DNA from: a virus
Length of the DNA stretch: 20,391 nt
Reading direction: 5' to 3' (one strand)
Virus record (IMG/VR): IMGVR_UViG_3300007759_000036
Coordinates: 1 to 20,391 of that record
In this document: positions 4,596 through 20,391 of the stretch, piece by piece
Layout of the letters: each line of letters begins with the position of its first letter
Position numbering within the stretch: position 1 is the stretch's first letter
The notes under the pieces: model-generated
What the model was told of the DNA's origin: nothing
The model's input: only the letters and a program-made list of their open reading frames with translations
Databases searched by the model: none
Program-made: the position numbers and the translations under genes

Positions 4596-6973
4596 TATAA
4601 ATCTGTTCCTGCTTTATTTAATATTGATTGAAGTTCCTGTATATCATCAGAAGACATGCTCTTTAGACACTCGCCTTTCTTGGATCCTTGAATAGCATCA
4701 GAAGCTTCCTCGGAAGAAAGTCCCATGTATTGCATCATAAATTTTTGTACCTCTGCATCTTCTTGTAAAACTAATAAACCAATAGGGTCTATGTCATTAT
4801 TAGTTATGTCAATCTTATTCCCCGTTGGCATAGAAGTTAGAAAATTTCCTGCCCCACCGCTGCTAACATTAGTTATATTTTGTGAACCTGTATTTCCTGA
4901 GACATTTACACCGGTACCTGTAGTATAGGTACCCTCGCCATTTCCTGTTTGCATTGTAGTTTCTTGGCTAGTTCCATCTTTATCAAGCTCAGAATTAGAT
5001 TTATCTTTATTTTTATATTTATTACAAATAAGAATACCATCAGCATTTAAAGCTAATAACCAATCAATCATATTAATTAATCCTTTAAGCATGGGTACTA
5101 GTCTACTTTCTTCAACTTCTTTATCATCACTGTTCCATGCTTCATTAATAGCTTTATTTTTCTGTTTTAAAAGCATCATATTTTTTATACGCTGAATAAA
5201 GGCCTGAACGGATTTAAAGAAACCATCTTTTCCGAAAATAGAAGTTATTAACATAATTAAAACTTTTTCCCAAGGTAAACATTTTACGGCAGCAGAATAA
5301 TAAGTACTACCAGGTTTCCAGATACCACCATTAGTTTCACATGTTTCTTTATCTCCAAATTCAGTTAAATAACGTCCATCCGTATCAAAGCAATGTCCTT
5401 GGGCAGCGGCTTGTTTATCAGCCTCTTCCTCCCATTCCTTCTTACGGTCAGCCACCCATTTAACCGATTGAGTCATTAGATGTTCTCTAATAACGTCTAC
5501 CATTGTCATTAAAATTAATTGAACACTATTGGTAGTTAATTCAATCATATTAAAACCTAAAGCCGGTAAACCAACTTTACCGTGTTTTGTTTCTAATAAT
5601 ACTAATAATATTTGTGCAATACTTTTAACATCGTCTAGCCATGCCTTTTGCTCTGATAAGAAGTCTTCCAATGACATTGGATTCTCTTTGTAATATACAA
5701 TTTCTTCTAGAATCTTTTCAAGTCTTTTTTCAAGTTTATTTAAAGCCGAAGTCATGGTAGCAAGTGACCATTCTCCGCCCCCTAAATACATATCTACAAT
5801 CGAATCTAAAATCTTTTTTTCAATTTTGCTAGAGGTGCTAGTTTCATCTAATGCATTAATAAAATCACTGGCCACTTCTAACTGAGATATTCCGCTTTCT
5901 AATTTTGATATATTACCAGTAAGCATTGGTTTTATTTTTGTCAAAACTTTTTGCTCTTGCTCAAGTAACCATATTTTAGCCGGAGAGAGGTTATTAGGAT
6001 CAAGTTCATGCTCTGCTAAATAATCTAAAAGTTCTGGTTGATTTTTCATAATTTCATAAAAAATACAACAATAAAATTGAACATCAACAGCAGTGTCCTG
6101 CGCTATTTGCAAGAATCCATTAGTAGTGTCTGCCGCAGTATTTAGTACCCCATTACCTACATCATAAGAAAACCCTCCTAAGAGGTTACTCATCATATCG
6201 TCAACACTGGGCTTTGTAGGATCAACATAATGGCCTAAGAGAAGAGGGGCTTCGTCATACTGATTATCTGAAACTTCTAATGGTACATATTGTTTAAAGT
6301 CTGGACTCGGGAAAGAAGAACCTTTTCCAGGTTTATTATAGAACTCTATTATAAGTTTTCCACCATTCTTCCATAAATCCTCATGCTCTCCTTCTTTAGG
6401 TTCTAACTTTATAGAGCTAACAGCCATGGTAAAAACAGCCGTTTGTTTTTTATTACCACTAACATTGTCGTAAGAAGTATCTTTATCAAAGACGGAAAAT
6501 AAAGTAGCTTTAGTAGGTCCTATCCAAAAATTAGCATCTTTACTATAAATTATGCCATTTTCCTTTGATGCTTTTTTCAGACCGCCACTGGGAATTCTTA
6601 AAGGATCATCACCGGGATAATCTTCAATAATAATTTTATTTGAATCATTGGCTGCCAATTCGCGAAATTGTCCATACCTTATTTCAAAATAATCACTACC
6701 TCCCTTAGTTTTAATCTTAGGATCACGTCCCCAGTCACCTACTTTATATGCAAGAGCATTTTTTAAGATAGATTCAAGTTTCAAAATAGGATGAGATGTG
6801 GCAGTAATTATATCCGGCTTAGCTGTCATAGCCTCGCCTTTATGCATCAGAATATCAACAGTTGCTTGTAACTCTGCTTCAGCTTTTGCTTTAGCTTCGT
6901 CTACAGCTTCATCGGTGTTCTCTTGTAATGTGTCCAAATAGCTTTGAGCTAGTTGTTCCATATCTGATGGCAT
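4595..6973 (-). CDS. Large unknown protein between terminase and portal
   Basis: 792 residues, family not recognised. Residues 1-60 are acidic and helical. About 60-260 is a mixed globular domain rich in Gly/Pro turns. Residues 285-560 are long helices with hydrophobic runs (for example QILLVLLET and QLILMTMVDVI). A small module with CFDTDGRYLTEFGDKETC and ETNGGIW around residues 545-575 has the C...C...GGxW look of short phage structural modules. Residues 675-735 are Thr/Gly/Asn-rich and probably flexible. It shares TAATG junctions with both TerL and portal, so it is expressed with the packaging genes. The start ATG has AGGAG six bases upstream, inside the last TerL codons. A virion structural role is likely but unproven. 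Confidence 0.75.
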   Translation of the reverse strand: MPSDMEQLAQSYLDTLQENTDEAVDEAKAKAEAELQATVDILMHKGEAMTAKPDIITATSHPILKLESILKNALAYKVGDWGRDPKIKTKGGSDYFEIRYGQFRELAANDSNKIIIEDYPGDDPLRIPSGGLKKASKENGIIYSKDANFWIGPTKATLFSVFDKDTSYDNVSGNKKQTAVFTMAVSSIKLEPKEGEHEDLWKNGGKLIIEFYNKPGKGSSFPSPDFKQYVPLEVSDNQYDEAPLLLGHYVDPTKPSVDDMMSNLLGGFSYDVGNGVLNTAADTTNGFLQIAQDTAVDVQFYCCIFYEIMKNQPELLDYLAEHELDPNNLSPAKIWLLEQEQKVLTKIKPMLTGNISKLESGISQLEVASDFINALDETSTSSKIEKKILDSIVDMYLGGGEWSLATMTSALNKLEKRLEKILEEIVYYKENPMSLEDFLSEQKAWLDDVKSIAQILLVLLETKHGKVGLPALGFNMIELTTNSVQLILMTMVDVIREHLMTQSVKWVADRKKEWEEEADKQAAAQGHCFDTDGRYLTEFGDKETCETNGGIWKPGSTYYSAAVKCLPWEKVLIMLITSIFGKDGFFKSVQAFIQRIKNMMLLKQKNKAINEAWNSDDKEVEESRLVPMLKGLINMIDWLLALNADGILICNKYKNKDKSNSELDKDGTSQETTMQTGNGEGTYTTGTGVNVSGNTGSQNITNVSSGGAGNFLTSMPTGNKIDITNNDIDPIGLLVLQEDAEVQKFMMQYMGLSSEEASDAIQGSKKGECLKSMSSDDIQELQSILNKAGTDL

Positions 6974-9330
6974 TAAAATCTCCTGCGTTTTGGTTTAACA
7001 ATTGATCTAGATGTATGTTTGAAACCTGAACGATTAAATAAAGTTCTTTGTTTTATAGGAACAGGTTTACCCTTTCCATCTAATTCATATTCCTCAGGTT
7101 CGCCGCGTGAAATAGACCCGTGGTTATATATAGTCATGTCATCCCGTTGTTGTACCTCTGGTCTAAAAGTTTTCTGTTCCACACTTCTCCATCCGGGTTT
7201 TACTGCAGAAATTCCTTCAAATCCTTCTACATTTTCTGCAGCTAAATCAGAGTCTCTTTTATGAAATACTGAGGTGTCCATTGTATAAGCATAGATACCT
7301 AGCATCATAGCATCTAATCTATGATCTAAGCCATCACGAACTGTGGATGCATACACTTCTCCCTGCTTACCAATTCGCTCTACTACATAACCCCTCATTT
7401 GTCCTATTAATTTTTGCTCCTCATCTTCAACTATTCCACCTTTTAAATCACACGCAGGAATAGCTAATAATCCACTTTCATTCATTAACTGGGCATTCTT
7501 CACCATAACATTTTTTGTGGGTGCTTTAGTAGAAGTTCCGGTTATTTTATCAATAATTTCAGTAGATCCTCCCATGTCAACTGATATCATATTATTTAGA
7601 AAATTTTTCATACCAGCACATGATGTCCCCATCGGGCCTACTCCATTTTCTAAGGATAAACGTAACATTTCATAATTAGCTTCCCCGTGTCCTTTATCAA
7701 AAGCCATTAATTTAAAAGGAATCTTTTTCATCAATTTTAAAATAAAGTCAACGGAACCCATATTGGTGTAAGAAGCGGGATCAATAGCGTCTGCATAGAA
7801 TACACGTAATAGGCCTGACTTTTCAATTCGATTGTTAGGCTCGCCGTTGATATCTTTCCATTCTCCTCCATTATAGGGTAGCAGGTGTTCTGTGTCATTC
7901 ATATATTCAAGTATTACTGCTTGTACTCCAAACTGAGATTCATTCCAATCAACCCCTAATATATAATAGTTATTAGGATTTACTTTCAAACTACTATAAC
8001 TATAGACATATAAATTTTGATCAATAAAATGATTTTTAAAGACACCTTCAGCCATCGATCCAAACTCTGCCATATACTCATGAAGATATTGACTCTCTGA
8101 AGTAACCATTCTAATTTGTTTAGCTTTTTCTTCACTCCACTGGGGAGAAACATTGGAAGGCATATGCCACTCCGAAAAGCCCATTTCGTCTTTATGTTTA
8201 CTGACATTATAAAAGTATTCGCGTTTACCTGTAGGAGTACCCGACACAGTAATTGAAGTATGTGTGTAAGATTGCTCAATAGGAAGAACTGCTTCTACCA
8301 ATAAGGCATTAGGAATAGAATCTACCTCATCAATGTATAAGTCACTAGCTGAGTTATGTACAAGAAATCCTCCGGAGTGTAAGCCATCTATTTTAAAAGA
8401 AGATAATGCATCTGCTCCATAAGGGGTAACTACGGCACCGCTAGAATTTGGAATTTGATTAAAGGCTATAAAATTATGATATTTGTCAATTGTAAGATCA
8501 TATGTTTTTGCTTTTCCAATTTTATGAAATTTCTGAACTCTTGTCCAATAAGCTTTTCCATTAGGATGTACTGTTGCTATAAAATCTGATTTACTACCCT
8601 GGTCCTCCTCAGTATTTAAATCTTTAGCCTCTATCCATCCTCTATACATTGCCATAACTTTATGGTTTTCTGTTAAATGTAATCTGCGCTCACTACTGCT
8701 TTCAATAGCATATATATCTTTTATTCCGTTATCGTGTATAGATGAAACAGTACCAACTCGAGCGTTATTATCAGTCAGTTCCGTGTCTACTGATAAAACT
8801 TTATCACCTTCTTTTATATCTTTAATTTCTTTTAATGTTATTCCATCCGCCATCACTACTAAAGTATCGCCGGGAAGACATTTACCACGAACAGCATTAT
8901 TTCCAACAAAACCCATAATAATAGAATTATTCTTAAATTTTATTTCGTAAGGACGCATTCTAGTTCCCTCAATTGATTTGGAAACTTCAGGAGATTCATT
9001 AACCATGTTCTTAATAAGATTAAACACAGTTTGAACCTGCGAATCATAGCCTGCAACTATAAGAATCTCCCTATATTTATTAGTATAAGCTTTCCAAATA
9101 GCTTCTACAGCTATAGTTACAGATTTACCAACACGACGGCCAATTCTAAGAATTCTTTTAGAGGCTCTATCTCTTAATATCTTCTTCTGGTAGGAGCGTA
9201 ATTCTAGGGGTTCATTGGGATTAGAGGGAGATCGTAAATATATTTCAGCAAAGTAAACTGGGTCTGCCAAAATCTTAGCTTCTAGTAATTGTTCATCGTC
9301 TAATATAGGTTTTTCTATTTGTTCAGACAT
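6973..9330 (-). CDS. terL: Terminase large subunit interrupted by an in-frame mini-intein
   Basis: 785-residue precursor. It is the ATP-driven DNA packaging motor and head-filling nuclease. ATPase part: Walker A RIGRRVGKS at residues 62-70 and Walker B DLYIDEVD at 330-337, with an SGTPTG coupling motif at 363-368. The nuclease part is an RNase H-like fold with candidate metal-binding Asp461 (LGVDW), Asp545 (AFDKG) and Asp669/Asp673 (DGLDHRLDA). Residues 151-326 are an intein; after excision the host protein would be about 609 residues, normal for the family, and would read ...AVRGK-SASDLYIDEVD. The C-terminus is basic (KPKRRRF). The start overlaps the preceding gene by 16 bases. Confidence 0.93.
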   Translation of the reverse strand: MSEQIEKPILDDEQLLEAKILADPVYFAEIYLRSPSNPNEPLELRSYQKKILRDRASKRILRIGRRVGKSVTIAVEAIWKAYTNKYREILIVAGYDSQVQTVFNLIKNMVNESPEVSKSIEGTRMRPYEIKFKNNSIIMGFVGNNAVRGKCLPGDTLVVMADGITLKEIKDIKEGDKVLSVDTELTDNNARVGTVSSIHDNGIKDIYAIESSSERRLHLTENHKVMAMYRGWIEAKDLNTEEDQGSKSDFIATVHPNGKAYWTRVQKFHKIGKAKTYDLTIDKYHNFIAFNQIPNSSGAVVTPYGADALSSFKIDGLHSGGFLVHNSASDLYIDEVDSIPNALLVEAVLPIEQSYTHTSITVSGTPTGKREYFYNVSKHKDEMGFSEWHMPSNVSPQWSEEKAKQIRMVTSESQYLHEYMAEFGSMAEGVFKNHFIDQNLYVYSYSSLKVNPNNYYILGVDWNESQFGVQAVILEYMNDTEHLLPYNGGEWKDINGEPNNRIEKSGLLRVFYADAIDPASYTNMGSVDFILKLMKKIPFKLMAFDKGHGEANYEMLRLSLENGVGPMGTSCAGMKNFLNNMISVDMGGSTEIIDKITGTSTKAPTKNVMVKNAQLMNESGLLAIPACDLKGGIVEDEEQKLIGQMRGYVVERIGKQGEVYASTVRDGLDHRLDAMMLGIYAYTMDTSVFHKRDSDLAAENVEGFEGISAVKPGWRSVEQKTFRPEVQQRDDMTIYNHGSISRGEPEEYELDGKGKPVPIKQRTLFNRSGFKHTSRSIVKPKRRRF
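8353..8880 (-). mobile_element. Mini-intein inside TerL (no homing endonuclease)
   Basis: 176 codons in frame within terL. Block A starts CLPGDTLVVMADG (Cys at precursor residue 151). Block B is LTENHKVM with the TxxH pair Thr220/His223. Block F is TYDLTIDKYHNFIAF (276-290). The end is FLVHN, giving penultimate His325 and terminal Asn326, followed by Ser327 as the +1 nucleophile. All class 1 splicing residues are therefore present. Only about 50 residues separate blocks B and F, too few for a LAGLIDADG endonuclease, so it is a mini-intein. An unusual stretch of roughly 30 residues sits between blocks F and G, where most mini-inteins have almost none. The insertion site is four codons before the start of Walker B. 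Confidence 0.93.
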
Positions 9331-10067
9331 ATAAGTAATCCGCTAATTATGGGAGATGAATTATTTTCAAAAGTAAGCATGAAAGCTGTTTGCTCTGTAT
9401 CTTCTACAAAACGCATACTTTCCTTTTTTAGCACCGGTAGCTCTTTACATATTTCAGGTAATTTAATAGTACCGCATCCTTGTACAGCTTTATGTCCTTT
9501 GACTTGTCCATCAAAAGGTATAAAGAGTTTACTAAGTGTTTGTATCATTATATCTTTACTATCCGTGGTTAAGTGTTTTAATGTTTGTAAGGGTAAAATA
9601 AATTTGTCTAGTATATAGGTTAAGGCGCTTTGACTTAATTTTGTTAAAGCCGCGGGTACCCATTGTTTTGTGTAGTAGTTAGGACGACTATTATTAACAC
9701 GTATTATTGAACTACCTAGGCTATCTAAATATAGTTTAGAAGGAGACCACGTTCCAAAAAAGGGCAGATGCCTAAAAGCACATGCATTAACTTCCCTAGG
9801 AGAGCCTCTAAAAGTTTCTGGATATTCTTTAAGTGATTGCGCTGTTAAGTACTCTTCTTTGCAAAGAGGTCCGCGAGTTAATTTTGTATCTTTCCCGCAA
9901 TATAAATTTCTACCATGAGATGATCGTAAATGCATAATATTTTCTTTAACTTTTTTAATAGATACAATACGATTAAATGTAAATTCATCTTTCCAGGCTA
10001 TGATGGATGGATAAGGAGAATAGTTTCCAAGATCTTCTATGGAAACTATTTCACCTGAAGCGAGCAT
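9315..10067 (-). CDS. Free-standing intein-like (Hint-type) protein with degenerate splicing residues
   Basis: About 250 residues if started at the ATG at 10065-10067, 17 bases after the bS21 stop; an upstream TTG at 10154 would give 279 residues but overlaps bS21. Not identified by a named family motif, but its two ends read like intein ends. The N-terminus LASGEIVSIEDLG resembles the strand after block A, and MHLRSSHGRNLYCGKDTKLT resembles block B with Thr and His replaced by Gly and Thr. The C-terminus AFMLTFENNSSPIISGLL then ICLN aligns well with blocks F and G, retaining the terminal Asn but with Leu for the penultimate His. Cys1 is absent. The central 120 residues are unrecognised and show no clear LAGLIDADG motif. 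It overlaps the terL start by 16 bases. Best reading: a splicing-dead or repurposed intein relative. Confidence 0.75.
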   Translation of the reverse strand: MLASGEIVSIEDLGNYSPYPSIIAWKDEFTFNRIVSIKKVKENIMHLRSSHGRNLYCGKDTKLTRGPLCKEEYLTAQSLKEYPETFRGSPREVNACAFRHLPFFGTWSPSKLYLDSLGSSIIRVNNSRPNYYTKQWVPAALTKLSQSALTYILDKFILPLQTLKHLTTDSKDIMIQTLSKLFIPFDGQVKGHKAVQGCGTIKLPEICKELPVLKKESMRFVEDTEQTAFMLTFENNSSPIISGLLICLNK

Positions 10068-10084
10068 TAAAAGTTGACCTTGGC

Positions 10085-10252
10085 CTAAGACCAGGGTTTT
10101 ACTTTTTTGAATTTGTGCCTTAGACTTGGTTTTATATAAAATCTTCTGTGCCAAAGTTCTTGCATAACTCCTGATTGATCGACTTTTTTCTTAAATCTGC
10201 GAAGCATTCCCTCTACAGATTCGTTTTCATGTTTAGGTGTAACTTTTACCAT
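10085..10252 (-). CDS. rpsU: Ribosomal protein bS21 homologue, phage-encoded
   Basis: 55 residues, start ATG at 10250-10252 with AGGAA upstream, stop TAG at 10085-10087. The protein begins MVKVTPKHENESVEGMLRRF and continues with KKKVDQSGV, a RRFYIKPS motif and a basic tail. The signature of bS21 is clear: V-x-x-x-E-N-E-S near the N-terminus, LRRFK, a G-V/I-helix, and R-R-x-F/Y-x-K-P. bS21 sits on the small ribosomal subunit near the anti-Shine-Dalgarno region. Phage-encoded bS21 is known from many environmental phages and is thought to bias host ribosomes toward phage messages. It starts 12 bases after the stop of the upstream gene. It is slightly shorter than typical host copies (about 65-71 residues). 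Confidence 0.92.
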   Translation of the reverse strand: MVKVTPKHENESVEGMLRRFKKKVDQSGVMQELWHRRFYIKPSLRHKFKKVKPWS

Positions 10253-11307: not shown

Positions 11308-11930
11308 TATACTGTACTCCTATGTCTGGCTTTGTGCATTGCAAAAGGCAAACTTCCACTCATACCTAAATGCCCTGGTTTACCCTTAGTGCGCTGATTT
11401 GACCACATACGATAACCTGCTCCTCCTCCTCTAGCACGGTTACCTGGAACTTGTTTCTGGTATGCTGCTCGTCTTGCTGTATTAGCGGCATTAACTACTT
11501 GTAATTGAACTTTTCGAGCTGTATATGCTCCTGCTACAGCGCCAATACCAGTTGCTGCGAGAGCTGCTCCTCCTATAGGTGTCTTAGAAAAAGCACCTAT
11601 TAGTAACGAACCTGCTAGCCCAATTCCGGCACCTGTAACTGCACCTACTCCGACTGGTTTAGTCATAGTAGACTTAGCAATATCAGGAAGTCTTTCTCCC
11701 CAATAGCCAGTAAGAGCGCCAATTCCTCCAACACCCTGTCCTGTAATACCTAAGGTAGCGACAGTTGCCTGTCTTCTCCAAAAACCCGCTTCTCTAAATG
11801 CTTTTGAAGATGTCATACTTTGGCTTCCCGGAGTCTTTGCTACACTCTTTCCGGGGCTATTTAACCATGATCCGGCCATTCCGGCGGCTCCTAACCCAGC
11901 CATTACGGCTAATGTAGATTTAGCTATCAT
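11307..11930 (-). CDS. Small glycine/alanine-rich membrane-type protein, probable virion component
   Basis: 207 residues. A hydrophobic N-terminal segment (residues 5-20, LAVMAGLGAAGMAG) could be a signal anchor. Two further Gly/Ala hydrophobic segments lie at about 96-114 and 118-136 (GVGAVTGAGIGLAGSLLIGA; GGAALAATGIGAVAGA). The C-terminal 55 residues are basic and Gly-rich, with GHLGMSGSLPFAMHKARH near the end. It shares composition with the following 347-aa gene and joins it at a TAATG overlap, so the two probably act together. The family is not recognised. A holin is unlikely: it is long, lies inside a packaging module and has a long basic tail. Confidence 0.7.
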   Translation of the reverse strand: MIAKSTLAVMAGLGAAGMAGSWLNSPGKSVAKTPGSQSMTSSKAFREAGFWRRQATVATLGITGQGVGGIGALTGYWGERLPDIAKSTMTKPVGVGAVTGAGIGLAGSLLIGAFSKTPIGGAALAATGIGAVAGAYTARKVQLQVVNAANTARRAAYQKQVPGNRARGGGAGYRMWSNQRTKGKPGHLGMSGSLPFAMHKARHRSTV

Positions 11931-12711
11931 TTTTCACATCCTCTTTAAAGGCTTCGTCAAGACTCTGTTCGGTGATCTTTTTTTCTTCTTGCTCTATTTC
12001 AACTAATTTTTCAAATTTCTCACGCATTTCTGCAGCCCTTGTTGAAGGATCTGTTTCATCCGTAAGTTTATACTTAGCACGTTGTTCTCTTGTTGCTAAT
12101 AATTCTTTTCTTAGTTGTGTTAAAAGTTTAGAAGATCTAGCTTTTATGTCTACATAAGGAGTAGCCTGCTCTGTATACAAAGCCGTACCTGTGGCTTGAA
12201 TAACGCTAGTTGCTACTTCTTTTACATCTCCATATAAAGCTATCATATTCTGTGCTCTCCGTTTATCGAGTAAGGCTGCTGCATATTCTTGTACCATACT
12301 TACTTCTAAATAATTTTCTAAGTCAACACCCATATCAGTAATTAACTGAGGTATCATTTGATCTAGATACATAATTTCATCGGGACAGCGTTCCCCCTTG
12401 GGAGCAATTCCAGCTTTATAAAAGAAACAAGTCTTATATACTGGACACTCCTCGCCATGACACAGCATGGGTAAAGTATTATTTACTCCGAAAGTAGAGA
12501 TCTTAGAATGCTTTAACAAGCTTGTCACTTGCTTTCTACTAAGCTTTATATCCTCCCTAACCTCTTCAGGATAGGCAGCAAGTATCTTTTCAATCTCTGT
12601 TGTTTTAGGTAGATCAACTAAGGCCACTAGGTCATCTTTACCCATCTTAGCCAAAGCTTTTTCTACCTTATCGGGAACTATGTCCTTATTAGTTATGTCA
12701 TCTTTACTCAT
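11920..12711 (-). CDS. Cys-cluster helical protein; candidate small terminase subunit
   Basis: 263 residues. The N-terminus is acidic. KLSRKQVTSLLKHSKIS at about residues 57-73 could be a helix-turn-helix-like segment. A cluster MLCHGEECPVYKTC (Cys84, Cys89, Cys95) is followed by APKGERCPDE (Cys109) and looks like a metal site. Residues 115-250 are long helices, with SKLLTQLRKELLATREQRAK suggesting an oligomerising or DNA-contacting helix. Proteins with a CP...C...P-x-G-x-x-CP pattern and a helical tail occur beside terminases in other phages, as I recall. No other gene upstream of TerL looks like TerS, so this is the best candidate, but the assignment is an inference. It overlaps both neighbours by 8-11 bases. 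Confidence 0.72.
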   Translation of the reverse strand: MSKDDITNKDIVPDKVEKALAKMGKDDLVALVDLPKTTEIEKILAAYPEEVREDIKLSRKQVTSLLKHSKISTFGVNNTLPMLCHGEECPVYKTCFFYKAGIAPKGERCPDEIMYLDQMIPQLITDMGVDLENYLEVSMVQEYAAALLDKRRAQNMIALYGDVKEVATSVIQATGTALYTEQATPYVDIKARSSKLLTQLRKELLATREQRAKYKLTDETDPSTRAAEMREKFEKLVEIEQEEKKITEQSLDEAFKEDVKNDS

Positions 12712-12925: not shown

Positions 12926-13283
12926 CCATTTCCAGTATACCTTTTGTAATAGTTTTATTAGAATACTTTTGATTCCATAAAGGAATCATAGTTTCATCTA
13001 TTTCATAAAAGGCAAGAATAGCACATGGTTTATAGTAAGGATCATGTACAATATGTTTAGATTGTATTTTTCGTTTAGCATCTCCTGCTACTACTGCATA
13101 GAACTTATGCTCATTACGCCAAAAAAGCAATTGAGTAACTACATCATCGGTAGTTGCTAAGTTATCGTATTCTTCCATATCAACCTCGTACACTTCGGGC
13201 TCATTGACATCTGCTTCATAGAAGTTTTTAGCCATAGCTCTTACGGGCTGAGGTAATTCTTCGTAACTTTCAACGGGTATCAT
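12918..13283 (-). CDS. Hypothetical protein
   Basis: 121 residues, acidic in its first half (NFYEADVNEPEVYEVDMEEYDNL), then a compact-looking alpha/beta part with Trp and aromatic residues (LLFWRNEHKFYAVVAGDAKRK; ILAFYEIDETMIPLW). No motif or family recognised. Its ATG overlaps the stop of the ClpP-like gene by 4 bases and its end overlaps the next gene, so it belongs to the same transcript. Confidence 0.7.
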   Translation of the reverse strand: MIPVESYEELPQPVRAMAKNFYEADVNEPEVYEVDMEEYDNLATTDDVVTQLLFWRNEHKFYAVVAGDAKRKIQSKHIVHDPYYKPCAILAFYEIDETMIPLWNQKYSNKTITKGILEMDV

Positions 13284-13903
13284 TGTTGCATCATTCCTAT
13301 AATTTCAGCTAAACCTTGTAAATGCATTGCTGCTTCTGCAAAGTTTTTATCTGTTTTATGTTGTATCAGTTCTATGGGCAGCTTATGTTCAATTTGTGTA
13401 ACAATACCTTCTTTTTTAGCTCTATCAGCCCACATAAAGTTTACCTTCGAATGAAGTTTTTCAAATTTCTTTTTGCTTATATTAGCTCGATCTTTGAATA
13501 AATCCTTTACAATTTCGCCTTGACTGCTTAGAGTTTCACTAGTTGTTTTAAAATCTAACGAAGATCCAGTTACATTTAAAGTACTGGGATGTGTCATAAA
13601 TTGTGTGCGAGGAAAAGCTATACGCTTATCCCCTGCAAGGAAAATAAGGACACCTGCCGAAGATACCTCGGACAACCCCAAAGTATGTACGGGAGCAATG
13701 GAGGATCTTAATATATCAAACAAAGATAAGGCTGTTTTTAAGTTTCCCCCATCTGTGTCTATAACAACATAGATAGGATCTTCTGTTGACATGCTATTTA
13801 ATTCTATTATTTGTGCCGCTACTCTTCCAATAAGGGAGTTTTCTCTTGTATCTTCCCCAGAAGTAGAAACAATATTTTCTGTTATAAAAATTATTCTATT
13901 CAC
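13280..13903 (-). CDS. ClpP-like serine protease family protein, catalytic Asp apparently missing
   Basis: 207 residues with the crotonase-like ClpP fold pattern: VVIDTDGGNLKTALSLFDIL (47-66) matches the family's N-S-P-G-G strand-helix; LSEVSSAGVLIFLAG (77-91) holds candidate nucleophile Ser82; RTQFMTHPS (99-107) holds His105. In the third motif, KVNFMWADRAKKEGIV (153-168), alignment to the usual R-D-x-F-(M/L)-S-A-x-E-A-x-x-Y-G-L puts Val154 where the catalytic Asp should be; Asp160 is elsewhere. It may use another residue, be weak, or be structural. Length is normal for ClpP. The phage also has a prohead protease, so this is probably not the main head protease. A role in host or phage protein turnover is inferred. 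Confidence 0.85.
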   Translation of the reverse strand: MNRIIFITENIVSTSGEDTRENSLIGRVAAQIIELNSMSTEDPIYVVIDTDGGNLKTALSLFDILRSSIAPVHTLGLSEVSSAGVLIFLAGDKRIAFPRTQFMTHPSTLNVTGSSLDFKTTSETLSSQGEIVKDLFKDRANISKKKFEKLHSKVNFMWADRAKKEGIVTQIEHKLPIELIQHKTDKNFAEAAMHLQGLAEIIGMMQQ

Positions 13904-15706: not shown

Positions 15707-16033
15707 TTATGTCTTACTATGTTTTAATTTATGCCTATACATATTATCGTGTCCTTGACATAGGCCATTTGCATGATGTTTCTTAATACAACCCGGATAA
15801 GTACAAGTTCCACCAGTTCCTTTGTTGGGAGCTTCTCTAGGCCCCCAACGAATTACAGTTTCATAATCAAACCCAGCTGCTTCCACAGCAGCTCCCCATG
15901 AACCAAAGTGACGTTGAGCCGCTTTCCATAAAGCGCCATTAGTTTGCTTTACGTATGTAGAATAGCATTTACTTTGTCCTAGTTCCTGAATAGCATCTAC
16001 TATTTTATCTTCTGTCCATTTACGTACTGGCAT
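15707..16033 (-). CDS. Small DNA-binding-type protein with C-terminal zinc cluster
   Basis: 108 residues in two parts. Residues 5-56 match the short repeat W-x-x-x-x-I-(x)n-L...LWKAAQRHFGSW-x-x-A-V-x-A-A-G, a helical module found in many phage proteins and next to homing-endonuclease-type domains, where it is thought to bind DNA. Residues 76-100 (Cys77, Cys82, Cys92, His95, with HHANGLCQGH) look like a small zinc finger of the C-x4-C...GLC-x2-H type. No nuclease motif is visible. It may be a transcription regulator or a remnant of a mobile endonuclease. It is separated from GroES and the next gene by 2 and 7 bases. Confidence 0.75.
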   Translation of the reverse strand: MPVRKWTEDKIVDAIQELGQSKCYSTYVKQTNGALWKAAQRHFGSWGAAVEAAGFDYETVIRWGPREAPNKGTGGTCTYPGCIKKHHANGLCQGHDNMYRHKLKHSKT

Positions 16034-16035
16034 GC

Positions 16036-16302
16036 TTATTCGTAGGAGGCTATTACATCCTCTTCTCTTATTATGAGAAATGTTTCATCATCTAAATTAA
16101 CAACTGTACCAGCGTATTTAGAAAATACTATTTTTTCTCCAACGACTATATCCTTAACATCAGGACCTATCTCAGTAACTACTGCTTTGTGTGGACGTCC
16201 TTTAGATTTTTCAGGTATAATAATACCGCCATCTGTAACGTCTTTTTGTTTTTCGGCCACAATTATAAGCCGATCTTTTTTAGGTTTTACTTTATAACTC
16301 AT
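16036..16302 (-). CDS. groES: Phage co-chaperonin, GroES / Cpn10 family
   Basis: 88 residues. It begins VKPKKDRLIIVAEKQKDVTD, matching the GroES start (V/I-x-P-x-x-D-R-(V/L)-x-V). It continues with the mobile-loop/GGIIIP region (residues 25-31), the VVTEIGPDV strand, VVGEKIVFSKYAGTVV, and ends IIREEDVIA as Cpn10 proteins do. It caps a GroEL ring during folding; T4 gp31 and other phage co-chaperonins replace the host cap to fold large capsid proteins. It is slightly shorter than the usual 95 or so residues. No GroEL-like gene is in the window, so it would work with the host chaperonin. A strong AAGGAG ribosome site precedes the ATG. Confidence 0.93.
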   Translation of the reverse strand: MSYKVKPKKDRLIIVAEKQKDVTDGGIIIPEKSKGRPHKAVVTEIGPDVKDIVVGEKIVFSKYAGTVVNLDDETFLIIREEDVIASYE

Positions 16303-20151: not shown

Positions 20152-20391
20152 CTATGATTTTAAAGTAATAACTAAGTATCCATCTGTATCTTTTTCAATA
20201 GAAGATACATTACTTAGATGTTGGTTACCTGTATCTCCTTTTACACCTTGTATACCCTGTATACCTTGATCACCTTGATCACCTTTTAAACCTTGAGCAC
20301 CTTGTTCACCTTGTATACCTTGATCACCTTGTATACCTTGATCACCTTGTTCACCTTGTATACCTTGATCACCTTGATCACCTTGTGCACC
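20152..20391 (-). CDS. Collagen-like tail fibre protein, C-terminal part (5' end outside window)
   Basis: The last 79 residues are visible. The first 57 are 19 uninterrupted Gly-X-Y triplets, mostly G-D-Q, G-I-Q and G-E-Q, with two G-x-K. The final 22 residues ([22 protein letters not shown]) leave the repeat and probably form a short beta cap. Collagen-like triplets form a trimeric rod in many phage tail fibres and appendages. Gln at nearly every Y position, with no Pro, points to a bacterial/phage collagen. It is followed directly by the hairpin-rich region and terminator. Confidence 0.85.
20221..20391 (-). repeat. 9-bp codon-phased repeat (Gly-X-Gln)
   Basis: Nineteen consecutive 9-base units of the form GGT-xxx-CAA (with minor variation) encode the collagen-like triplets. 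Nucleotide identity between units is high, so the array can change length by recombination or slippage. Confidence 0.85.

Follow-up and report, generated by a model that had tools for sequence, protein, structure and literature searches.

We report an intein that appears to have become a phage gene in its own right. In the 20,391-base virus record analysed here (IMG/VR record IMGVR_UViG_3300007759_000036, to which IMG/VR has identical contigs; the window), a T4-like head module lies on the minus strand, and the open frame at 9315-10154 on that strand, directly upstream of the large terminase gene terL, encodes a protein that we call PSI, for pseudo-intein. With fair confidence, we read PSI as an ancient domesticated pseudo-intein, that is, a non-catalytic binding protein encoded as its own gene without exteins. 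The former selfish element probably now has a job in the phage, since every related phage sampled keeps PSI under selection, and it probably works in the late packaging module. Our computations speak against PSI as a splicing intein, as an active endonuclease (judged by residue content), as the small terminase and as a passenger in decay.

Family scans of the PSI sequence alone against Pfam, NCBIfam, PHROGs and the PDB gave no match. We collected homologues by a search guided by the portal and terL genes, and built alignments of 8, 10 and 16 members. When the PSI profile was aligned by hhalign with nine phage LAGLIDADG inteins, it scored 35.1 for the 10-member family (174 columns) and 45.4 for the 16-member family, in each case above all 100 column-shuffled controls (maxima of 24.2 and 22.3, respectively). 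Against TerL mini-inteins, the larger family scored 30.4 (shuffled maximum 17.8), and the 10-member family scored 20.5, with one shuffle in 100 scoring higher. Beyond its own family, the PSI hidden Markov model matched best, though weakly (E = 0.0018-0.014), to phage proteins that bear inteins. A match in a Nesbitt phage (E = 0.04) fell on small hypothetical open reading frames on the opposite strand and was dropped; scans of genome contigs found no relative.

AlphaFold2 modelled window PSI, from the alignment of eight (the window and seven homologues), with a predicted local distance difference test score (pLDDT) of 75 and a predicted template modelling score (pTM) of 0.73. All 24 Foldseek matches of this model in the PDB at E < 1e-3 were inteins or Hint domains, headed by TliVMA (6e-8), then PhoVMA and PI-SceI, all of which bear LAGLIDADG domains. 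The homologue from lineage L211, only 15% identical to window PSI, was modelled with a pLDDT of 80 and a pTM of 0.77; PhoVMA (2.5e-6) was its top match, with inteins or Hint domains throughout the list. Nearly all listed matches of the two predicted models are to inteins or Hint domains, which have the horseshoe-shaped Hint fold. Judged from these profiles and models, PSI is an intein by ancestry and by predicted fold. An earlier, sequence-only reading of this DNA had proposed a free-standing degenerate intein here, naming a structure without the Hint fold, or a match to small terminase, as evidence that would count against it. We looked for both and found neither, and the proposal is supported by the intein-type fold together with the loss of catalytic residues described below.

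The resemblance runs from one end of the intein to the other. The hhalign alignment begins at intein position 1; PSI proteins start at most a few residues before that position (in L017, L021 and L215, the initiator Met stands directly before it) and stop within a few residues of the last one. No in-frame exteins surround PSI, which is flanked by the separate frames of bS21 and terL. By hhalign placement and alignment, the N-terminal Hint half occupies 9870-10091 (minus strand; approximate boundaries), with a block A-like segment VLGQGQLLMLASGEIV and a block B-like segment HGRNLYCGKDTKL. The C-terminal half, placed from alignments, lies at 9315-9410 (minus strand) and carries the block F/G-like segment FMLTFENNSSPIISGLLICLNK. 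The alignments and hhalign thus bear out the match, first made by eye, of the two gene ends to intein blocks A/B and F/G. The C-terminal blocks are plain in deep members of the family: L213 ends in ADNICDGLFIWRQS and L218 in ADNICDGLMVWRQS, for which the intein counterpart is HNFIANGLxVHNS.

The residues required for splicing have been lost throughout. At position 1, no member of the 16-member alignment has Cys or Ser, and V, I, L, K, T, Y, E or R stands there where the position could be read. The Thr-x-x-His pair of block B is replaced in all complete members, the His usually by Thr (in the window, Thr to Gly and His to Thr), and Thr is kept alone in L211. The terminal His-Asn is also replaced in all complete members, with endings such as SFLCQ(IS), GLLICLNK and GLFIWRQS; in the window, the penultimate His aligns with Cys and the terminal Asn is lost. 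The replacement of Cys1, the block B pair and the penultimate His, first noted in the window, thus extends to all complete members, apart from the lone Thr of L211, and a complete set of splicing residues was found in 0 of the 16 aligned members. Because these residues are missing, PSI cannot splice, and we rejected it as a splicing intein. A pair of Cys residues, one in block B and one at the penultimate position, is invariant in the near clade and in L110 and L211. We considered this pair, seen in ten sequences, as an active site and dropped the idea, as one or both Cys are lost in the deeper members L202, L213, L215 and L218; for this reason we make no enzymatic claim for PSI.

Between the Hint halves lies a collapsed LAGLIDADG region (9510-9745, minus strand; boundaries approximate), which we placed by hhalign (14-189 against inteins) and by the AlphaFold2 secondary structure. 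It comprises a motif-1-like helix (LYLDSLGSS), the residues RPN, a motif-2-like helix (LTYILDKFI), a short strand (TLKHL) and a further helix (SKDIMIQTLSKLF). The two motif-like helices align with the LAGLIDADG motifs, without Asp or Glu at the catalytic positions. From the motif-1 helix to the lead-in of motif 2 there are about 17 residues in window PSI versus about 90 in inteins. Instead of a saddle of two four-stranded β-sheets, the predicted structures show one or two short strands, and the hairpin of the second repeat is shortened; in the models, the DNA-binding saddle is gone. With the acidic residues gone, the first-repeat saddle collapsed and the second-repeat hairpin shortened, neither cleavage nor normal DNA binding is expected of PSI. 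The same losses tell against the suggestion, made in the sequence-only reading, that the gene is a split-off mobility function.

Among the IMG/VR contigs and few phage records that supply our co-occurrence data, PSI lies directly upstream of terL in 18 distinct phage lineages (the window, L007, L016, L017, L018, L020, L021, L023, L108, L110, L189, L194, L202, L210, L211, L213, L215 and L218; PSI of L007 is truncated where its contig ends, and the L210 assembly is ambiguous, with broken frames). No member of the clade without PSI was seen. Identity between PSI proteins falls to 14%, and the TerL exteins stay at or above 39%. NG86 ratios of non-synonymous to synonymous substitution (dN/dS) were 0.15-0.42 for PSI and 0.06-0.18 for the TerL exteins, rough values since dS is saturated, and in a neutral-drift simulation no frames were open at 0.5 or more substitutions per site. 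PSI is kept under purifying selection. Its pairwise distances correlate with those of the TerL exteins (ρ = 0.865; none of 2000 permutations as high), and because PSI distances follow TerL, the gene looks vertically inherited rather than mobile. Purifying selection in 18 lineages and a fixed place upstream of an intein-bearing TerL favour a captured dead intein with a new job, one of the possibilities raised at the outset.

The terminase itself (6973-9330, minus strand; phrog_2 8.6e-26, Pfam Terminase_6N) is interrupted by an in-frame intein. As the sequence-only reading had stated, this intein has no endonuclease: it is a mini-intein of 176 amino acids (C151-N326, +1 Ser; 8353-8880, minus strand; Pfam Intein_splicing 1.2e-12). 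It sits directly before the Walker B strand (VRGK/C...HN/SASDLYIDE, with slashes at the intein boundaries), and its splicing residues are intact. An endonuclease-less mini-intein occupies the same site in TerL of all 18 PSI lineages, with C1, TxxH and HN intact in 17 of the 17 that could be read through, and no relative has PSI or the mini-intein alone. We found no PSI in loci whose TerL has an empty intein site, and neither PSI nor bS21 upstream of terL in ME3 and KLEB27-3; neither was found for MTATph1, whose record begins at terL and so does not show what lies upstream. When TerLs with an empty RGK site were sought, only a different TerL family came up, so that no intein-free relative was near enough for a linkage test. 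As the two always occur together, a trans-acting partnership between PSI and the TerL intein, the other possibility raised at the outset, is possible.

Blocks F and G of the TerL mini-intein are separated by a long additional segment (NQIPNSSGAVVTPYGADALSSFKIDGLHS), which is shorter in some deeper members, and the L007 mini-intein has no linker between blocks B and F. In the PSI clade, TerL is a hotspot for multiple inteins: L023 (3768-5000, with LAGLIDADG), L210 and L215 have a second one, which splits Walker A (GRR/C...N/TGKT), and L211 carries another farther downstream. The TerLs of ME3 and KLEB27-3 also have Walker A inteins.

How might such a protein act? A whole intein, with its Hint fold and LAGLIDADG remnant, would have been freed from its host gene and then stripped of splicing and endonuclease chemistry. 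What is left could be a non-enzymatic scaffold that acts by binding a partner, presumably made late in infection, when bS21 and TerL would be translated with it. The first partner to consider is TerL or its intein: the PSI frame lies between those of bS21 and TerL and overlaps them, and an intein of like fold interrupts TerL beside Walker B. A role on either is plausible; TerL in some form (the unspliced precursor, its intein or the packaging motor) is the most likely putative partner, although we put this at somewhat below an even chance.

Several observations weigh against the domesticated, TerL-linked pseudo-intein. Its fold is predicted rather than solved, and TM-scores of about 0.6 denote partial matches. 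PSI dN is roughly 2-4 times that of the TerL exteins, which indicates fast evolution under moderate constraint. Closeness to terL is common to a dozen head genes. Finally, when the exteins were controlled for, the partial correlation with the TerL intein was 0.40 for PSI and 0.39-0.59 for six neighbouring control genes. Since PSI does not follow the TerL intein more closely in its divergence than these neighbours do, the co-occurrence, which amounts to a single nested clade, may reflect shared descent.

The most specific form of the TerL hypothesis is that PSI is a dedicated trans-acting regulator of TerL splicing, which would bind the precursor or the mini-intein and delay or promote splicing, so that the packaging ATPase, interrupted beside Walker B, would not be active until late. 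Such a natural protein, acting in trans on an intein, would time the splicing of the Walker B-adjacent mini-intein and hence the onset of packaging. The strict pairing of PSI with a same-site mini-intein whose splicing residues are intact where read, and the absence of PSI from empty-site loci and from ME3 and KLEB27-3, fit this idea, as does the fold class that PSI shares with the intein to be bound; retention of an endonuclease-less intein while TerL diverged to 39% identity also suggests a use. However, the association may trace to one ancestral event within the nested clade, PSI tracks the intein no better than the control genes do, and inteins normally splice without cofactors. We know of no dedicated trans-acting splicing regulator from the open-access papers that we checked. 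On balance, we regard a regulatory role of this kind as unlikely. If PSI does act on TerL or its intein, it would be a protein regulator dedicated to conditional protein splicing and would give phage packaging a new switch.

A somewhat less likely partner, and the next to consider after TerL, is bS21 or the ribosome, for example in tuning late translation. The bS21 gene precedes PSI in 16 of the 18 lineages (the exceptions being L215, where none was detected, and L007, whose contig starts inside the PSI gene), and the two genes overlap or abut in nearly all. Moreover, in other phages, which infect Bacteroidetes, bS21 is expressed with a neighbour of similar phylogeny that is annotated without a function (PMC9723584). 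That neighbour lies on the opposite strand, though, and no link between it and PSI has been shown; L215 keeps PSI without a detectable bS21, and no RNA-binding fold was found for PSI.

We disfavour, as distinctly improbable, the idea that PSI is a mere passenger, a dead free-standing mobile element like yeast WHO (weird HO) or a former collaborative-homing endonuclease for terL. Intein ancestry and a place beside the likely target would suit it, much as WHO genes adjoin a particular gene, FBA1 (PMC7282806), and so would the density of Walker A and other inteins in the TerL of this clade. Yet PSI is catalytically dead in every lineage and nonetheless open and under purifying selection, its distances follow TerL, and the clade offers no member that has lost it. 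We give almost no weight to the idea that PSI, as an active homing endonuclease, moves the TerL mini-intein in trans. Its sole support is that a LAGLIDADG-derived protein lies next to an intein without an endonuclease, and we rejected it on the missing residues, since the acidic residues of both motifs and, with the shrinkage of repeat 1, the saddle are gone.

It is equally improbable that PSI is the small terminase or an unrelated head protein with an accidental resemblance to inteins, since the structure searches contradict this. PSI does hold the place directly upstream of terL that terS frequently takes, but family scans and Foldseek found no TerS-like sequence or fold in it, and a conserved terS-like gene lies about 2 kb upstream. 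The small terminase is thus probably a different gene, for which the candidate is at 11920-12711 (minus strand); among seven orthologues, five match Pfam Terminase_4 over this same region (best E = 3.9e-5, 24.4 bits against a cut-off of 24.7).

The domesticated pseudo-intein has partial counterparts among known systems. Like the LAGLIDADG (DOD-type) inteins PI-SceI/VDE, TliVMA and PhoVMA, PSI has a predicted Hint domain with an inserted LAGLIDADG-type region, begins near intein position 1 and ends a few residues from the intein C-terminus; unlike them, it has no exteins and lacks the splicing nucleophile, the terminal His-Asn and the Thr/His pair of block B, and all that is left of its endonuclease is a few helices devoid of acidic residues. 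The Hint fold also occurs outside ordinary inteins in bacterial intein-like (BIL) and Hedgehog Hint domains, which gave weaker Foldseek matches. Those domains are autoprocessing and form part of larger proteins, whereas PSI makes up an entire protein and, judged by its sequence, is inactive. Phage TerL inteins share its neighbourhood, and the window TerL has one; in mycobacteriophages they are well described and lie in the ATPase domain near functional motifs (PMC5050341). They are, however, in-frame and splicing, and PSI has a gene of its own.

The nearest precedents are yeast HO/WHO, in which the nuclease is kept, and WhiA. PSI resembles HO and WHO in being free-standing, non-splicing and intein-derived. 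In contrast to PSI, they keep an endonuclease domain and have a zinc finger; in window PSI no zinc finger domain was detected and the catalytic residues are absent, and PSI is phage-borne and vertically inherited between bS21 and terL. WhiA, a regulator of actinobacteria and other Gram-positive bacteria, also keeps a homing-endonuclease fold for another purpose (PMC3781837). It retains a DNA-binding LAGLIDADG domain and has a helix-turn-helix (PMC11701221), whereas PSI keeps the Hint domain, has lost the saddle and shows no detectable helix-turn-helix. The proximity of phage bS21 to head genes is known from PMC9723584, whose main text does not mention inteins. A search of open-access papers gave no case of a dead intein that stands alone in a phage. 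The usual view of inteins is of selfish elements, which either persist through homing or decay; PSI appears to have been kept over a long evolutionary span as a gene of the phage, next to a terminase that bears an intein.

The PSI frame seen earlier at 9315-10154 exists, and its 5′ end needs correction. Counted from a TTG at 10154 it would encode 279 amino acids, but the first 14 or so codons overlap the bS21 gene in another frame, and relatives start at a later ATG that overlaps, touches or falls just inside the bS21 stop. In the window, the position aligned with these starts holds an AUU codon (10112-10110) with AAGG five bases before it. Judged by the orthologues, this AUU is the probable start; the gene would then span 9315-10112 (minus strand) and encode 265 amino acids. 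L110 likewise has no obvious ATG at the aligned start. A run of six A residues at 10103-10108 (coding strand) near the end of bS21, in a -1 relation to the PSI frame, could permit a frameshift fusion of bS21 and PSI in the window phage, which has no PSI ATG at the aligned place. We weighed such a fusion and set it aside, as most relatives have their own PSI ATG.

In the order of transcription, the head module encodes the terS candidate, two Gly/Ala-rich proteins, bS21, PSI, TerL, a 792-amino-acid protein and the portal, followed by a zinc-ribbon-like protein, a protease and capsid proteins, the last roles being assigned from gene order. The bS21 gene (10085-10252, minus strand; 55 amino acids; Pfam Ribosomal_S21 1.2e-14, TIGR00030 2.2e-13, phrog_21469) overlaps the 5′ end of the PSI frame, and the terL start overlaps the PSI stop by 16 nt. 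The three genes form a tightly overlapping cluster on one strand, and the place of PSI upstream of terL is invariant. Elsewhere on the minus strand are a ClpP-like protease gene within the head module (13280-13903; Pfam CLP_protease 2e-23), a small protein with an HNH-associated repeat (15707-16033; Pfam HNH_repeat 4e-5), possibly a homing-endonuclease remnant, and an 88-amino-acid protein that by eye resembles the GroES co-chaperonin (16036-16302). At 20152-20391, also on the minus strand, a protein with collagen-like Gly-X-Y repeats runs past the end of the contig.

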